Positions 12,573 to 21,322 of a stretch of 54,465 bases of DNA are shown piece by piece. Each line of letters begins with the position of its first letter. The stretch's first letter is position 1. Both the position numbers and the translations under genes were made by a program. The notes under the pieces were generated by a model. The model saw only the letters and a list, made by a program, of their open reading frames with translations, made no database searches and was not told the DNA's origin. Where the stretch lies: contig JAPPBT010000029.1 of assembly GCA_026702745.1 (NCBI GenBank), positions 1 to 54,465 of the forward strand. The letters are read 5' to 3'. Source of the DNA: Gemmatimonadota bacterium (GTDB lineage: Bacteria > JAAXHH01).

Positions 12573-13625
12573 TCAGATCCAGCCGTGATCGATGTTCACC
12601 GGCGTGCCGGACTGCTGGTGCGTCCACTGTCCCCCGCTGGCCAGCGGCACTTCCCGTCCGGATACGGAAGACTGCTCCGCGGCGAACAGGATCTCCATGA
12701 CGTGACGGCCCCATTCTCCGGGCGTGGGCGGTTCGATATCCTTGCGGATCGCCTCGACGAAACCTTTCCACTCGTTGTACATGGGATGAGGCGGGTCGTC
12801 GAAGGGCACGTCCTCCCACCGGTTGTCCTTGCCCACCCTGACGTACTTCTCGCCGGACTCGCTGAAGCGCAGTGAACCGTTGGCGCAGATCACCTGGCAC
12901 TCGTGGTTCGGGCCGCCATCGGCATACCCGACGGCCACCGCCACGCCCGACGTGCCGTTCTTATAGCGGATGAAGGCCGTGGCGGAATCGTCGGCGGCCT
13001 GGTAGTGCGCCCTGTTGCCGATGGTGGCGGAGACCGAGACCGCCTGCGAGGCCATGACCCAGGAGAGCCGATCCACCACGTGGACCCCGTTGGTCATCCA
13101 CATGCCGCCGCCGTGGAACCGGCTGCGGTACTGGGGCCTGCGGCCTCCGTATCCCCAGTTCTTCGACATGTAGCACACCCCCGTAATGGCCGGTCCCAGA
13201 GTGCCGGAATCCAGGATCTCCTTGGCCTTGATGCTGGTGCCGTAGAAGTGCTGCGTCAGGCCCACCATGAGCTTGACACCGTTGGCCGCCGCGGCGGCGA
13301 TCATGTCGTCGCACTGGTCCAGGCTGATGGCCATAGGTTTCTCCACCAGTACGTGCTTGCCCGCGTTGCAGGCGTCCAAGGTCAGGCTATGGTGCAACTG
13401 GTGGCCGAGGACGATGGCCACCGCTTCAACCTCGTCGTCCTCAAGCAGCTCTGTATGGGTGGCGTACCCCCTGGGTATGCCGTACTTGTCCATGTATTCT
13501 TGGCGCTTCTCCTCGAGCAGATCGGCGACCGCTACAATCTCCACGTCATCGATGTTCGATATAGCATCGCAGTGCGATCGGGCGATGCCGCCCAGTCCAA
13601 TGATGCCGACGCGCAGGTTAGTCAC
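12573..13625 (-). CDS. Gfo/Idh/MocA family oxidoreductase
   Basis: This 350-residue protein has the N-terminal NAD(P)-binding motif VGIIGLGGIARSHCDAI, the conserved HVLVEKPMAISLDQCDDMI segment with the Lys-Pro pair, and a C-terminal alpha/beta domain beginning near GPAITGVCYMSK. Family members oxidise or epimerise sugars, inositols and related compounds. It converges with the upstream phosphatase gene and lies just downstream of hicBA on the same strand, 48 bases after the hicA stop. Substrate unknown. Confidence 0.9.
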   Translation of the reverse strand: MTNLRVGIIGLGGIARSHCDAISNIDDVEIVAVADLLEEKRQEYMDKYGIPRGYATHTELLEDDEVEAVAIVLGHQLHHSLTLDACNAGKHVLVEKPMAISLDQCDDMIAAAAANGVKLMVGLTQHFYGTSIKAKEILDSGTLGPAITGVCYMSKNWGYGGRRPQYRSRFHGGGMWMTNGVHVVDRLSWVMASQAVSVSATIGNRAHYQAADDSATAFIRYKNGTSGVAVAVGYADGGPNHECQVICANGSLRFSESGEKYVRVGKDNRWEDVPFDDPPHPMYNEWKGFVEAIRKDIEPPTPGEWGRHVMEILFAAEQSSVSGREVPLASGGQWTHQQSGTPVNIDHGWI

Positions 13626-14534: not shown

Positions 14535-16328
14535 ATGTACCCGATCCGTAAGCACGCCCGCGTGTCCAGGCCGGTCCGGAGCCTGGCCTTTGCCGTCCTC
14601 ATCCAGTGGATCACCCTTTCAGCCGCCGCCCAGTACACGCCGGTGGGCCCCGACGACGTGGTCGATCTATCGCCGGCTATATCCGGCCGCCACTACCAGT
14701 ACTGGCCGGGCGGACAGATACACCACCAGCCTATCGTCGTGCCCTATATCGTACACGGAGACCGGCCGTGGGCGTCGGACCTGATCATCCTGGACGAGAA
14801 CACGGCCACCCAGACGGACACGCCGGCCCACATGATGCCGCCCCAGCACAGCGGTCTGCCGAACGCCCATTACTGGGGTGATCTTACGGTGGAAAAAGTC
14901 CCGGCCTGGCAATTAGTGGGCGAGGTATACAAAATCGACGGCCGGTCCATGCTGGACCAGGCTCCGCCGGGCGTGAGTCCCCTGTTCACCATAGATGTGG
15001 TCAAGGCCGCCGAGGCGGCGCACAGGCCCATGGGACCGGGCGACGCCGTCCTGTACTGGAGCGGGTACGACGACCGCCACGACCGGCCCGCGCCGGACGA
15101 CCGCCGCCTGATCGTGGAACCCGTCGCGGGGACGGCGCCTGGATGGCCCGCGCCGGACTACGACGCGGCGGAATACGTGGGCAGCCGGGGAGTCTGGCTC
15201 ATGGGCATCGACAGTCCGAGCATGGGTGGACTGGGTCCGCCCCGCTACATCGCGTCGGGTCCCGATGGCTTGTACGTAAATCCCCTCGCCCTGGAAAGCC
15301 ATCTCGGCCATTTCAAGTACGGTGCCGTACACACGGAGGGACTGATCAACCTGGACAGGACGCCCAACGGATCCCTGTACATTGCCCTGCCGGTCAAGCA
15401 CGAGAACTCACCCACGGTGGAAACGAGGGCGGTGGCCATAACCAATCCGGACCTGGCTGCGCGACTGCTTGAGGCCGTTAAGTCGAAACGGGTGGTCGAC
15501 CTCTCCGTAACGCTGTCCATGGACCGCCCCGTCTGGTGGCCGGGCCGCGGCGTGGGCCGTCACGTCTTTCCCTATTCGAGGGTGCAGCCGGTGAACTATT
15601 TCGATGGTCCATTCGGCCCCTACTGGGTCAACACCCACTTCATGGATGCTCATACAGGAACCCACGTGGATCCGCCCGCGCACTACGGCCCTCCGCCCGG
15701 ATTCGACACGGGCAGGTATGACGAAACGGTCCGCGCCGCGCTGAGGGAGTTCGAGGCCGAGCACGGTCCGCTGAAGCGCACGGAGTTGACGACGGAAAAG
15801 GTCCCGTTGCACCACTTCATGGGGCCCGCCCGGGTCGTCAACGTGCAGCACCGCGTGGGGACGACCTCGTGGGATGACTGGCCGGCCTCACCGGCCATCA
15901 CGCTGGACGATGTCAGGAGACACGAGGATCTGTACGGGGAGATCGAGGAAGGCGAGGTCGTGCTCTTCCATACGGGACATACGGACACCCACTTCCGCCG
16001 CTTCATCCGGGTCGTGGTGGAACAGAGTGTCAAATCGCCCCTGGACGGACAGTCCGAGGGATGGCCGGCGCCGGGTGCGGACGTCATCGCCTATCTGGCC
16101 GGCAAAGGCGTGAAGCACGTGGGCATCGATGCACCCGACATGGGATCGGTGGACCCGGTGGAATCCATGAAGACGCACTGGGCGGCGGTGAACCACGACA
16201 TGATCTTCACGGAGTATCTGATTGGCGTGGGGCAGCTTCCGCCGAAAGGCGCTTTCTTCATCTTCCTGTGCCCGCACCTCGAAAACAACCACGGCGGTCC
16301 GGGCCGGGCCATCGCTATACTGCCGTAA
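14535..16328 (+). CDS. secreted tandem-domain cyclase family protein
   Basis: This 597-residue protein has an N-terminal signal peptide (basic start, hydrophobic LAFAVLIQWITL, cleavage near SAAAQ) and two copies of the cyclase/kynurenine-formamidase-like fold. The second copy (about 315-597) keeps the metal and catalytic signature DAHTGTHVDPPAHYG. The first copy (about 35-300) has ENTATQTDTPAHMMP at the same place, with two metal-binding His replaced by Asn and Gln. The second half is therefore probably the active amidase or dehydratase, and the first a structural or binding half. AGGGAG lies at 14522-14527 before the ATG. Substrate unknown. Confidence 0.85.
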   Translation: MYPIRKHARVSRPVRSLAFAVLIQWITLSAAAQYTPVGPDDVVDLSPAISGRHYQYWPGGQIHHQPIVVPYIVHGDRPWASDLIILDENTATQTDTPAHMMPPQHSGLPNAHYWGDLTVEKVPAWQLVGEVYKIDGRSMLDQAPPGVSPLFTIDVVKAAEAAHRPMGPGDAVLYWSGYDDRHDRPAPDDRRLIVEPVAGTAPGWPAPDYDAAEYVGSRGVWLMGIDSPSMGGLGPPRYIASGPDGLYVNPLALESHLGHFKYGAVHTEGLINLDRTPNGSLYIALPVKHENSPTVETRAVAITNPDLAARLLEAVKSKRVVDLSVTLSMDRPVWWPGRGVGRHVFPYSRVQPVNYFDGPFGPYWVNTHFMDAHTGTHVDPPAHYGPPPGFDTGRYDETVRAALREFEAEHGPLKRTELTTEKVPLHHFMGPARVVNVQHRVGTTSWDDWPASPAITLDDVRRHEDLYGEIEEGEVVLFHTGHTDTHFRRFIRVVVEQSVKSPLDGQSEGWPAPGADVIAYLAGKGVKHVGIDAPDMGSVDPVESMKTHWAAVNHDMIFTEYLIGVGQLPPKGAFFIFLCPHLENNHGGPGRAIAILP

Positions 16329-16369: not shown

Positions 16370-16948
16370 TTACGAATCGTCCGCATTCCGTCCCACCCCC
16401 AGGGCATCCGCGACGCGGTTGATGTAGTTGAACCACGACGCGATCAGGGTGATCTGGAGGATGGCGACGTCGTCGAACCCCACGGACCGCAGTCCTTCGA
16501 GATCGGCCTTCCGGATCTGCGTGGCATCCTCGGTGAGCCGGATGGCGAAATCCAGCATCGCCCGGTCCTGGGCGTTCAGCGGAGCCTTATCGTAGTCGTA
16601 CTTGATCGCTTCGACCAGTTCGCTGTCCAACGTGACCCGACGCAGAAACTCTGCGTGCGAATCAATTCAGTATACACACCGGTTTCTCGACGAGACGATG
16701 GTCGAGATCATCTCGTGCTGCCGGCGGCTCAACGGAAGATCCGGCGACAGCAACACCCCGAAGGTGGCGAAGGCGTGATGCAGCGCCTCCGGGATCAGCG
16801 AATGGGACGCCACGATGCCGGAAGTGCCGTCGTCGGTGGGATGCACCGGCGTGTCGTACTCCGCGGGATAGAGCGCGCGCTGAGCCTCGAGGGCGGCGAG
16901 CAGCCGTTCGTCCCCATCCGACGCGGAGACGGTCTTAATCCATGCCAT
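16370..16948 (-). CDS. AhpD-like peroxidase, probable selenoprotein (in-frame TGA = Sec94)
   Basis: Read through a TGA at 16669-16667, this frame gives one 192-residue protein of the carboxymuconolactone-decarboxylase/AhpD superfamily (peroxidase-related type). Before the TGA lies [15 protein letters not shown], after it [11 protein letters not shown], both on one frame with no indel. Glu79, Cys91, position 94 and His98 match the spacing of Mycobacterium AhpD Glu118-Cys130-Cys133-His137, so the TGA replaces the peroxidatic Cys. A hairpin at 16640-16656 fits a bacterial SECIS. The likely role is thiol-dependent peroxide reduction. A strong CAGGAGAAAC ribosome site precedes the ATG at 16948, and the gene overlaps the permease stop by 14 bases. 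A single nonsense mutation is the alternative. Selenocysteine genes (selA, selB, selC, selD) are not in the window. Confidence 0.78.
16640..16656 (-). promoter_or_regulatory. candidate bacterial SECIS hairpin
   Basis: In the mRNA, ACGCAGA and UCUGCGU form a perfect 7-bp stem closed by the 3-nt loop GUU. The loop begins with G and lies 18-20 nt after the UGA. This fits the usual description of bacterial SECIS elements: apical loop 16-37 nt from UGA, loop of 3-14 nt, G in the first two loop positions. It encodes HAEFLR within the protein, so coding constraint is superimposed on it. Confidence 0.65.
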
Positions 16949-18290
16949 GGGTTTCTCCTGACGTTCTTTGCTGCGTTGTCTGGTTTCTGAACACGAGAAG
17001 GTATACCGGTATTCCCAGGGCCGTCACGCCGACGCCGAGCAGGGCCTGCACGGGACTGTTGCCGAAGAGCAGCACGAGCAGGACCGCGGCGAGGATCAGG
17101 AACAGCACCGGAGTGACGGGATACAAGGGAGTCCGGTAGGGAGGCGTCTCGGCCGACCTGCGGCGTACCACGAACAGGCCCGCCACGGTGAGCGCGATGA
17201 ACAGGACGGCCACGAAGATGAAGTAATCCAGAATCTGGCTGAAGGTTCCCAGCCACACCAGCAGTGAAGCCAGTCCGCCCTGGATGGCGATCGCGCGGTA
17301 GGGCGTGCCGAAGGCGGGATGGACGGCACCGGCGAAGCGGAGGAAGACCCCGTCCCTGGCCATGGCAAAATACACCCTCGGCGCCATGAGCAGCAGTCCG
17401 GTCAGGCTGCCGACGACGGACAGGATGACCACGGAGGAGAACAGGATACCGCCGCTGCGGCCAAAGAGCACCTCGCCGGCCTGCGCCGCGAAGGTCTCGT
17501 TGCTGGTGACCTGGGATACGGGTACGAGGTACATGAAGACGGCGCTGGTGGTGATGTAGGTCAACGCGACGATACCGACGGCCAGCAGCAACGCCCTGGG
17601 GAGGGTGCGCGCCGGGTCCTTGATTTCGCCGGCCACCTTGTTCAGGTCCCACCATCCGGCGAAGGCGAAGAAGGCGCCCACGATGCCGCCGGCAAGGGCG
17701 CCGAACAGGGGTCCGGAGTCCGCGGGCCGCGCCACGAAGGGCGTGAAGTTCGACCAGTCGCCGAGCCCCAGGCCGAACCCCAGGATGGAGATGACCGCGA
17801 GGACGCCGACCTTGAAAACGGTCAGCAGGACGATGATCCAGGCGCCGATGCGCACGCCGTAGATGTTGACGCCGGTCAGGACGGCCAGCACGGCGATGGC
17901 CAGCAACTTCATCGCGACCGGATCCAATGGATAGATATGGCCCGCGTAGCTCGCCATCCCGGTCGCCAGGGTCGCCGTGATGCCCGGATCCAGCACCATC
18001 AGGGACATCCAGCCGTACATAAAGGCCGTCGGCGTGCCGTAGGCCTCCCGGAGATAGATGTATCCGCCGCCCGCGTGGGGATAACGGGAGGCCAGTTCTC
18101 CGAAACACAGCGATCCGCAGAGGGCCATCCCGGCCATCGCCAGCCAGATGACGAGCAGCAGCAGGGGCGATCCCAGCGACTTGGCCATCCCGGCGGGCAC
18201 CAGGAAGATCCCCACGGCGATCATCCCGCTGATCACCATGGCCGTGGTCGGCCAGATTCCCAGTTGTCGGCGCAGGTTACCCGTGGTCAT
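16935..18290 (-). CDS. APC-superfamily amino acid permease
   Basis: This 451-residue membrane protein begins with the APC signature GIWPTTAMVISGMIAVGIFLVPAG in its first helix and continues through about 12 hydrophobic segments. GGGYIYLREAYG after helix 2 and the helix-6 region GGIVGAFFAFAGWWDLNKVAGEIKDP are typical of amino acid/polyamine exchangers. The substrate cannot be assigned. It is followed with a 14-base overlap by the AhpD-like selenoprotein gene and preceded after 39 bases by a PhyH gene, so the three are likely co-transcribed. Confidence 0.9.
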   Translation of the reverse strand: MTTGNLRRQLGIWPTTAMVISGMIAVGIFLVPAGMAKSLGSPLLLLVIWLAMAGMALCGSLCFGELASRYPHAGGGYIYLREAYGTPTAFMYGWMSLMVLDPGITATLATGMASYAGHIYPLDPVAMKLLAIAVLAVLTGVNIYGVRIGAWIIVLLTVFKVGVLAVISILGFGLGLGDWSNFTPFVARPADSGPLFGALAGGIVGAFFAFAGWWDLNKVAGEIKDPARTLPRALLLAVGIVALTYITTSAVFMYLVPVSQVTSNETFAAQAGEVLFGRSGGILFSSVVILSVVGSLTGLLLMAPRVYFAMARDGVFLRFAGAVHPAFGTPYRAIAIQGGLASLLVWLGTFSQILDYFIFVAVLFIALTVAGLFVVRRRSAETPPYRTPLYPVTPVLFLILAAVLLVLLFGNSPVQALLGVGVTALGIPVYLLVFRNQTTQQRTSGETHGMD

Positions 18291-18329: not shown

Positions 18330-19133
18330 TCACACCAGTTCGGGTTCGTTCTCGATCCGGCTCAGCCAGTAGTGGTTGTCGAACTGGTCGTCACCGGTCA
18401 GAAACCGCCAGAAGTGGATCCGGTTGACATGTTCGATGCGTTCTTCGTTCCCATGCCACGGCTGGTTCGTGCTCAGGATATGGCTGACTTCCGGATCGTC
18501 GATGTCCTCCGTATTCCAGAGCCTTAGCTGCCTGACCGTGGGGTTGAGGCGCAGCTTGAACATGTACCGCATCTCGTCGGTGCGATTCGGCTGGGCGCAG
18601 TGCCACATGCCGTGATGGAGCACGATCACCGTCCCGGCCTTGCAGATCATCGGCACCTGGCCCACGAAGTTGTGGTACCGGGCGATGTCGGATTCGCTGA
18701 TGCGGCGGTAGTGGCTGCCGGGAAGGATCAGCGTGCCCCCCATCTCCCTGGGCGTGTCGTGGGCGAAGTACATGAACTGGATGTCGAAATGCAGCCGCGT
18801 GTCGATGATCGCGTCCGCGTGCCAGTGCTGTCCGAAGTGGTGACCGGCCGCCACGGTGTGCACGGCGTGGTGATCGTACAGTGGATCGGGACCGACGAGG
18901 CTGTGGATGATGCCCTCGATCTCCGGAAGCCGGAAAACGCGGCCCACGGCCGCGTCCGGCCAGATGGCGCTCAGGGGCGATCCTGCCTCTTCCCGGGGAA
19001 TGGCCTGGTTGTCCATTTCCGCTTTCACGGCCTGATTGAGGTCGTCGGGCACCAGTTCGTCGAAACGGAGATATCCTTCCGCGACGAACCGCGCCATTTG
19101 CTTCGAATTCAACAGATGGGTGCTGTCAGCCAT
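18330..19133 (-). CDS. phytanoyl-CoA dioxygenase (PhyH) family protein
   Basis: This 267-residue protein has the Fe(II)/2-oxoglutarate dioxygenase fold. The iron ligands are His and Asp of HWHADAIID (about residues 99-107) and the distal His of HHGMWHCAQPN; an Arg for 2-oxoglutarate follows in EMRYMFKLRL. Family members hydroxylate varied small molecules, so phytanoyl-CoA need not be the substrate. The start overlaps the stop of the preceding small gene by eight bases, which implies coupling. Confidence 0.88.
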   Translation of the reverse strand: MADSTHLLNSKQMARFVAEGYLRFDELVPDDLNQAVKAEMDNQAIPREEAGSPLSAIWPDAAVGRVFRLPEIEGIIHSLVGPDPLYDHHAVHTVAAGHHFGQHWHADAIIDTRLHFDIQFMYFAHDTPREMGGTLILPGSHYRRISESDIARYHNFVGQVPMICKAGTVIVLHHGMWHCAQPNRTDEMRYMFKLRLNPTVRQLRLWNTEDIDDPEVSHILSTNQPWHGNEERIEHVNRIHFWRFLTGDDQFDNHYWLSRIENEPELV

Positions 19134-20030: not shown

Positions 20031-20088
20031 CGGACGGGTTCAGGCCGCCGGACGGACGGGTTCAGGCCGCCGGACGGACGAGGTCAGG
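20031..20088. repeat. 22-bp tandem repeat at the dprA 3' end
   Basis: Two identical 22-bp copies (20031-20052, 20053-20074) and a partial third lie in the gap between dprA and rfaE2. The partial copy reaches the dprA stop codon. The unit length is not a multiple of three, in contrast to repeats inside genes. Confidence 0.92.
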
Positions 20089-21322
20089 ATCTCACGAACC
20101 TCATGCCCGGCAATTGCCGTACCGCGCCTTTCAGTTCGAGCGCCAGCAGGACACCGAGCGCCTGGGAAGACGTAAGGGAGAGGGCGGTCGCCAGGTGGTC
20201 GATGTGCTTGGGATCCGAGGTGACCTGACCGTACATGGATGCCTCAACGGGCGGCAGTTCGAAATCCGGGCCGGCCGGTTCCGGTTCCGATCGGGTCGGC
20301 TCGAAACCCAGCCGGGGCGCCAGCTCGTTGATCACGTCCTCGACCCGCTGGATCAGCTTGGCCGTACCGTCCTTGATCAGCCGGTTCACCCCCTCGCTGC
20401 CGGCCGCGTTCAGCGGTCCGGGGACGGCAAAGACCTCGCGGCCCTGGTCCAGGGCGAAGCGCGCGGTGATCAGCGCTCCGCTGCGCTTGCCGGCCTCCAC
20501 CACGATCGTCCCCAGCGTCGAACCGCTGATGATCCGGTTGCGCTGGGGGAAATGGACGGCGTCCGGACCGGTTCCGAAGGGGTGCTCCGTCAGCACGGCG
20601 CCATGTTCCCGGATGGATGCCATCAGCTTGCGGTTCTCCGCGGGGTACGGCCGGTCTAGGCCCGAGCCCAGCACCGCCACCGTACGGCCGTTGCCGCGCA
20701 GTGCGGTCCGGTGGGCGAGCGTGTCCACACCCCGCGCCAGGCCGCTCACGACCGTGAACCCGTATGCACTCAGTTCCGCGCTGAAGGCCTCGGCCATCCT
20801 GCGGCCGTAGGCGGTGGTAAACCGCGTACCCACGATGGCGATGGACTGTTCGTCCTCCACTTTCCAGCCGCCGGAAACGAAGAGCAGCGGCGGCGGATCG
20901 TAGATCTCGCGAAGCCGCTCGGGATAGTCCCGGTCGCGGAAGGTGACGATGCGCGCGTCGTGCCGATCGAGCAGGTGCAGCTGACGGTCGACGAAGGCCT
21001 GGTCCCGGTGGCCGCGCACCGCCCGGGCGATCCGCGGTCCCACCCCCTCGGTCTCGGCCAGTTCGTCCAACGTGGCGGACAGGACCGCGGCGGGCGAACC
21101 GAACCGGCTCAACAGCGCGTGGAACCGCGACGCCCCTACGCCCGGCACACGCGCAAGGGTCAGCCAGGATGCCAGGTCCGCCAAAGACCGGTCCGTCATA
21201 GATAGGTCCGTCATAGATAGGTCCGCCATAGATAGGTCCGCCATAGGCCGGTCCTCAATGGACGGCCATTCAGTGTAGTTTCGGGTTACGGAACTAACCG
21301 GTATTTCGTCGGCGTTTATCAC
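20084..21322 (-). CDS. dprA: DNA-processing protein DprA
   Basis: This protein of up to 412 residues has an N-terminal HhH/SAM-like part (RVPGVGASRFHALLSRFG), the Rossmann-type DprA core (SIAIVGTRFTTAYGRRMAE, VSGLARGVDTLAHRTAL, FPQRNRIISG, VVEAGKRSGALITA) and a C-terminal winged helix. DprA loads RecA onto incoming single strands during natural transformation. A comEA-like gene lies 7 kb upstream on the same strand. The start is uncertain: GTG at 21322, or any of four ATG codons at 21244, 21229, 21214 and 21199 created by a 15-bp tandem repeat. The extra N-terminal MADLS repeats are not part of the normal domain. Confidence 0.92.
   Translation of the reverse strand: MINADEIPVSSVTRNYTEWPSIEDRPMADLSMADLSMTDLSMTDRSLADLASWLTLARVPGVGASRFHALLSRFGSPAAVLSATLDELAETEGVGPRIARAVRGHRDQAFVDRQLHLLDRHDARIVTFRDRDYPERLREIYDPPPLLFVSGGWKVEDEQSIAIVGTRFTTAYGRRMAEAFSAELSAYGFTVVSGLARGVDTLAHRTALRGNGRTVAVLGSGLDRPYPAENRKLMASIREHGAVLTEHPFGTGPDAVHFPQRNRIISGSTLGTIVVEAGKRSGALITARFALDQGREVFAVPGPLNAAGSEGVNRLIKDGTAKLIQRVEDVINELAPRLGFEPTRSEPEPAGPDFELPPVEASMYGQVTSDPKHIDHLATALSLTSSQALGVLLALELKGAVRQLPGMRFVRS
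21191..21250 (-). repeat. 15-bp tandem repeat multiplying the dprA start codon
   Basis: Four 15-bp copies (CTATCTATGRCGGAC on the coding strand, with one variant end) follow each other without gaps. Each carries an in-frame ATG, and each inner one is preceded at seven bases by GGA from the previous unit. Translation could begin at several nested positions. Confidence 0.9.

Follow-up and report, generated by a model that had tools for sequence, protein, structure and literature searches.

A probable AhpD-like selenoprotein gene from a Latescibacterota lineage and the wide retention of its selenocysteine codon

AhpD-like selenoproteins are a known kind of protein. As the original prediction stated, they have been reported from marine metagenomes: the available portions of the two surveys describe 27 AhpD-like sequences (COG2128, CxxU) from the Sargasso Sea in 2005 (PMC1088965) and, from GOS in 2008, 299 sequences of AhpD-like 1 (COG2128, CxxU) and 70 of AhpD-like 2, with a table that sets 902 Cys homologues against the 299 Sec sequences (PMC2398784). 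A 2026 review, in the part available, lists an "AhpD-like protein, TIGR01926, CxxU" (PMC13188914). As far as the accessible text goes, another study counts 2 AhpD-like (COG2128) selenoproteins among the genomes it covers and, for Acidobacteria, 4 selenoproteins (PMC1794560), while the accessible text of a paper that touches on selenoproteins and Acidobacteria (PMC12013277) does not mention AhpD. NCBI also models two groups of (seleno)proteins, NF041238 (AhpD_rel_CFYUT) and NF053654 (YciW-related), that are weakly similar to the protein discussed here.

We studied a gene in a 54,465-nucleotide stretch of DNA (hereafter, the window) from contig JAPPBT010000029.1 of the assembly GCA_026702745.1. 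The gene has its protein family and its CxxU motif in common with the marine selenoproteins. In contrast to the 2008 marine set, which includes many Cys homologues, it comes from a Latescibacterota lineage and belongs to a subfamily that has Sec almost universally among the homologues that we examined. So what is new is not the kind of selenoprotein but a member from Latescibacterota and an unusually strict and wide retention of Sec. In the accessible portions of the open-access literature on Latescibacter and selenocysteine, no selenoprotein is reported from Latescibacterota, and we did not find the pattern within the subfamily (the retention of Sec and its TxxC converts) or the pairing with a permease described in the open-access literature, as far as its accessible portions go.

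We estimate a probability of about 96% that the gene encodes a single 192-residue AhpD-like (peroxidase-related) enzyme of the CMD fold, in which UGA 94 would be read as Sec by tRNA-Sec and SelB under the direction of the hairpin downstream. At the level of sequence, this reading is supported by the recoding signals, by a complete Sec machinery, by strict evolutionary retention, and by the fold family. The features that we discuss are collected in Table 1.

Table 1. Features of the probable selenoprotein locus in the window
Feature	Position	Strand	Details
APC-family amino-acid permease, 451 aa	16935..18290	-	PF13520, 201.6 bits
Ribosome-binding site AGGAG	16955..16959	-	6 nt 5' of ATG; read from sequence
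AhpD-like selenoprotein gene (probable)	16370..16948	-	192 codons plus stop, one in-frame TGA
Probable Sec codon TGA (codon 94)	16667..16669	-	CxxU with Cys91
SECIS hairpin core (candidate)	16640..16656	-	7-bp stem, GUU triloop, 17 nt from UGA to loop
Hairpin with extended lower stem	16633..16664	-	seen when the window sequence and L058-L060 are folded; not in all homologues

The gene and its fold family

The gene runs along the minus strand (16948 down to 16370), a point on which the original prediction was silent. It is one continuous frame with a single TGA, as had been claimed: with the TGA read as U (U94), there are 192 residues followed by a terminal stop, and no further stop or frameshift was found in the 192 codons. 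The claimed spacing of Glu, Cys, position 94, and His is also there, as E79-x11-C91-V-Y-[TGA]-I-D-S-H98. Automatic annotation was expected to break the gene into fragments, and a mechanical list of open reading frames does give separate frames of 93 and 86 amino acids. We also scanned the window for other genes that might be read through a TGA, with at least 45 open codons required on both sides. There was no C-x2-U in the 25 places that were viewed, out of 130, several of which were ordinary gene ends; this is a weak scan, as our own gene lies outside the 25.

Six NCBIfam models match the protein at E <= 0.001, of which only TIGR01926 (peroxidase-related enzyme; 118.8 bits, cut-off 81.8) and the domain model TIGR00778 reach their cut-offs. 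Neither of these is named as a selenoprotein model. The models for AhpD proper (TIGR00777, 20.2 bits vs. a cut-off of 191.95), for the AhpD-related (seleno)protein (NF041238, 53.8 bits vs. 175), and for the YciW-related (seleno)protein (NF053654, 29.6 bits vs. 310) all fail. The gene had been described as an AhpD-like selenoprotein; the selenoprotein reading is supported, but the family is TIGR01926 and not AhpD proper.

The predicted structure (pLDDT 92.1) has a CMD fold like that of its solved relatives. The best PDB matches from Foldseek are 6k40, 2pfx, 2prr, 3c1l, and 2oyo, which are AhpD-like, peroxidase-related, or antioxidant entries. They share both fold and family with the window's protein (TM 0.71-0.81 over the query length; sequence E from 2.2e-25 to 8.4e-19), and 2pfx and 2oyo, the two whose alignments were examined, have a Cys at the place of the Sec. 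AhpD of Mycobacterium tuberculosis is a weak fold match (1knc and 1gu9, E of 0.04 and above). According to the available part of PMC3141380, its active residues are Glu118, Cys130, His132, Cys133, and His137. The spacing of Glu118, Cys130, Cys133, and His137 is the same as that of Glu79, Cys91, Sec94, and His98, so that position 94 aligns with Cys133, while Tyr93 stands where M. tuberculosis AhpD has His132. The same source shows that PA0269 of Pseudomonas aeruginosa likewise has a Tyr at this place. The five-residue relay of AhpD (Glu, Cys, His, Cys, His) is thus incomplete, with four of the five positions kept and Sec in place of one Cys. Taken together, the comparisons support the assignment of the window's protein as a putative CxxU AhpD-like selenoprotein of the TIGR01926 family.

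Retention of the TGA and its rare replacement by Cys

All 16 genomes of the phylum contain homologues, at 34 places (E <= 1e-5) that include the window gene's subfamily as well as more distant paralogues, and each of the 34 has one TGA. Within the genus, all 12 orthologues have the TGA at the identical place. The nearest named relatives (L058-L061, 92-96% identical) are from metagenome-assembled genomes that are called Candidatus Latescibacterota, and it is on these relatives that our assignment of the genome to this phylum is based. Another near relative, L062, is titled Gemmatimonadetes, and its match coordinates are those of the match in G004, a genome of the window's genus. (The joined sets of loci hold duplicates: by their coordinates, L039 is L062 and L040 is L063.)

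The original prediction proposed to align homologues and to see what they have at position 94. We searched GTDB with two peptide patterns that exclude this position, which gave 566 confirmed relatives; among the best 80 of these, position 94 is TGA in 77, Cys in 3, and nothing else. The genomes of these 80 are titled Acidobacteria, Gemmatimonadetes, Planctomycetota, KSB1, Melainabacteria/Obscuribacterales, Chthonomonadaceae/Chthonomonas, Poribacteria, Latescibacterota, and others. Among the best 80 of the 566 GTDB relatives, then, the retention of Sec near the window gene appears to be nearly universal across several phyla.

Farther away the picture is mixed: Cys was found in 5 and TGA in 9 of the 14 more distant loci that we examined. 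Matches to our alignment A1 (E <= 1e-30) occur in 45 genomes of a wider sample of 384, at 66 places. The 37 places above 200 bits all have the TGA (33 of them are from the phylum itself), and the 29 places below 200 bits split into 15 with TGA and 14 without. These counts imply that Cys forms, common as they are in the family at large, are rare among close relatives of the window gene. All eight of the homologues with a sense codon that were examined have Cys (nine more stop-free places in the wider sample lie outside the eight). So the in-frame UGA aligns with a Cys of homologues, as is expected of a bacterial selenoprotein.

Could the TGA instead be a damaged Cys codon, due to recent pseudogenization or a sequencing error, which would leave only a 93-residue fragment? 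TGA is one base away from TGC and TGT, and the two separate frames in the mechanical list are what such a gene would give. But a recent accident does not account for a TGA in all 34 places across the 16 genomes of the phylum or in 77 of the best 80 of 566 relatives, from several phyla, and the frame has no other stop or frameshift. Furthermore, the part that lies 3' of the TGA is undamaged, as had been predicted: dN/dS is 0.08 for codons 2-93 and 0.20 for codons 95-190 (means of 66 pairs), and the value of 0.20 after the TGA implies that the downstream half is selected as protein. We consider damage or error to be extremely improbable and return to the reading that codon 94 encodes Sec.

The genome has two more CMD-family genes. 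An AhpD-like gene on contig 87 (L002:1375-1938, which is also L045) has a single in-frame TGA (NECEYUIRHH), followed by a hairpin of its own. A third CMD-family gene, on contig 58, has no TGA, and the window's protein did not retrieve it.

Among the best 80 of 566, Cys occurs in L106 (Acidobacteria), L120 (Chthonomonadaceae), and L128 (titled Schlesneria). Each of these three copies also has a Thr in place of Cys91 (TxxC), and they are without the SECIS hairpin at the usual place. We masked positions 91 and 94 and built a careful tree of 99 rows, with no root inferred. In this tree the three Cys copies form one group (support 100/87), with one Sec row as its sister (99/82), and they sit within a group of 79 rows (98/92) that otherwise are all Sec. 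The minimum number of state changes on the tree is two, the second being for a distant CxxC group. A quick tree with positions 91 and 94 unmasked gave the same result. From the grouping, it appears that the Thr91/Cys94 form arose once and not three times.

We also asked which of these genomes encode SelB. For 40 genomes of the 80, SelB is above its cut-off in 34 of the 37 TGA genomes (the exceptions are those of L066, L067, and L134) and in none of the three Cys genomes. If kinship is ignored, the chance that all three Cys genomes would fall among the 6 SelB-negatives of the 40 is 20/9880, or about 0.002; because the Cys form seems to have a single origin, the association may reflect just one event.

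The hairpin and the selenocysteine machinery

A SECIS-like hairpin had been predicted to begin 11 nt past the TGA, and it does: nucleotides 11-17 pair with 21-27, and 18-20 (GUU) form the loop. For the 39 nt that follow the TGA, the folding energy is -17.8 kcal/mol, a stability that 1.55% of 2000 synonymous shuffles reach. The review mentioned above, in the part available, gives constraints for bacterial SECIS elements: a loop of 3-9 nt, a stem of 4-16 bp, a G in the first two positions of the loop, a distance of 16-37 nt from the UGA, and an MFE <= -7.5 (PMC13188914). Checked by hand, the window's hairpin lies within all of these bounds (3-nt GUU loop, 7 bp, 17 nt, and -17.8 kcal/mol).

The sequence of the hairpin is frozen at synonymous sites. 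When the 12 orthologues from the genus are compared, codons 97-106, which cover the hairpin, make up the longest invariant run, and the next longest is 4 codons. For codons +4 to +9 (CAC GCA GAG TTT CTG CGT), with 87 distinct Sec sequences of the subfamily, a single codon accounts for 94, 90, 98, 99, 92, and 92% of the rows that share the residue. In the rest of these genes, the most frequent codon for those residues is used at 37-65%, and GCA and CGT are at 8% and 7%. Of 79 distinct Sec sequences, 75 have a stem of 6 bp or more whose triloop starts 17-19 nt past the UGA, where synonymous shuffles would give 9.75. All 11 distinct paralogue sequences also have such a stem at the fixed place (0.18 expected), and none of the 3 Cys sequences does. 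The stem is missing from the fixed place in 4 of the 79 Sec sequences (L118, L121, L126, and L135). These four are from Melainabacteria-type and planctomycete genomes, where the SECIS may take another form; L135 is the copy from Limnoglobus roseus, a cultured carrier.

Among the paralogues, L046 and L053 keep the register of the stem and have one pair as G-C instead of C-G, which is changed on both sides; the remaining paralogues have a different stem that is shifted by one nucleotide. Within the subfamily there is little variation at most of the pairs, and the support there comes from synonymous freezing and not from covariation. We also tried the folding energy of the whole 39 nt as a test for the SECIS and rejected it: it is weak over the family, and controls also give some low values. 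Relative to synonymous shuffles, the mean z is -1.08 for the subfamily (16 of 79 at p <= 0.05) and -0.54 for the paralogues (1 of 11 at p <= 0.05), while the upstream control stretches have a mean z of -0.26 (12 of 85 at this level) and the downstream ones a mean z of -0.12 (6 of 81). So the case for a SECIS rests on the fixed position of the stem and on the frozen codons. As judged by codon choice, the conservation of the hairpin is greater than the protein needs.

A search for selA, selB, selC, and selD had been proposed as a check, and all four are present in the gene's own genome (G000), an assembly of 3.88 Mb in 102 contigs that is 96% complete. On contig 66 are selA (452.6 bits) and selB (349.7 bits as a protein scan, with a cut-off of 242.25), and directly after selB is a tRNA-Sec (RF01852, 70.6 bits) whose anticodon is tca according to ARAGORN. 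selD is on contig 46 (263.1 bits). By eye, the frame that encodes it (L025:1396-3843) starts with an oxidoreductase-like domain, which suggests a fusion of an oxidoreductase with SelD; the available part of PMC2398784 speaks of Ndh-SelD fusions. Among 14 control genomes, SelB, SelA, and SelD are above their cut-offs in two each. The tRNA model is less discriminating: RF01852 has a second match in our genome at 47.5 bits, barely above the cut-off of 47, and it passes in 5 of the 14 control genomes, so the bare cut-off lacks specificity.

Within the phylum, SelB is above the cut-off in 14 of 16 genomes, with G009 (87% complete) and G015 (85% complete) as the exceptions, and SelA is above the cut-off in 15 of 16, with G012 failing at 19.5 bits. 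All 16 carry the TGA gene, including G009, G015, and G012.

An open frame under an altered code would not by itself prove Sec, and a changed genetic code or ordinary readthrough might insert Trp or Cys at the TGA. However, other genes in the window (for example those at 12573..13625, 18330..19133, and 20084..21322) terminate normally at TGA, and the genome has SelA, SelB, SelD, and a tRNA-Sec with anticodon tca. Where homologues have a sense codon it is always Cys (in the eight examined), and the three Cys homologues of the subfamily are without the hairpin at its place. We think that such decoding is very unlikely. Instead, decoding as Sec is our preferred reading, and the sequence evidence that this Latescibacterota lineage decodes Sec is strong.

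The upstream permease and the possible chemistry of the enzyme

The last 14 nt of the permease gene are also the first 14 nt of the selenoprotein gene, with both on the minus strand, and we infer that the two are probably co-transcribed. Of 85 subfamily loci, 28 have a relative of the permease directly upstream in the same orientation, and none of 14 paralogue loci has one; among the 85, at least two genes are counted twice, and some upstream flanks do not reach far enough to show whether a permease is there. In the 28 loci, the alignment of the permease relative ends 269-394 nt before the TGA. In L065, L110, and L112 it ends farther upstream. The 28 are titled Latescibacterota, Acidobacteria and its classes, Gemmatimonadetes, or Planctomycetes, or are from untitled genomes of the phylum, and one of them is the Cys copy L106. 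In some of the related loci, the ends of the permease and selenoprotein genes overlap as well. The recurrence of the pair suggests that the permease and the selenoprotein may be functionally linked. On its other side, at 14535-16328 of the window, the selenoprotein gene has a convergent neighbor from the Putative cyclase family (PF04199, in two stretches), and a relative of this gene is nearby in four related loci (L058, L060, L062, and L063).

What might the enzyme do? From the family and the active-site residues, peroxidase activity seems the natural guess. Sec94 would attack a hydroperoxide or another oxidized substrate, and Cys91 would then pair with it as a selenenylsulfide. Glu79 and His98 could act as a proton relay, and a thiol or dithiol donor of the cell would reset the enzyme.

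Alternatively, the protein may be a selenoprotein but not a hydroperoxidase: its Sec-Cys pair could serve in general thiol-disulfide chemistry or in reductive dehalogenation, as in other CMD-fold proteins perhaps. The family name says only "peroxidase-related," position 93 is a Tyr, and an amino-acid permease that recurs upstream does not point to peroxide. Also, Foldseek finds the debrominase Bmp8 (6ohi), although this is a weaker match (TM 0.73, 16% identity). On the other hand, the nearest relatives in both sequence and fold are peroxidase-related proteins, and four of the five positions of the AhpD relay are retained, with Sec replacing one Cys. We lean away from this alternative while taking it seriously, and a peroxidase that uses Sec94 is still the reading we prefer.

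Three features were less expected: the near-total retention of Sec across phyla, the change of Cys to Thr at position 91 in the Cys copies, and the recurrent permease upstream. A tentative idea, which we think is rather unlikely, is that the subfamily is committed to Sec across several phyla and depends on selenium chemistry, so that a Cys does not just step in for the Sec; where a lineage gave up Sec decoding, the enzyme may have been remodelled to work with a single Cys. It may often form a two-gene unit with the permease, as a selenium-dependent system tied to the import of a redox-active amino acid or peptide.

Because a mechanical reading splits the gene at the TGA, it is easy to overlook a conserved enzyme in the environmental genomes that have it. 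The subfamily is also a clean test case for why some enzymes retain selenocysteine: near this gene Sec is nearly universal in several phyla, the sequence of the SECIS is frozen, and the few copies converted to Cys have a second change in the active site.
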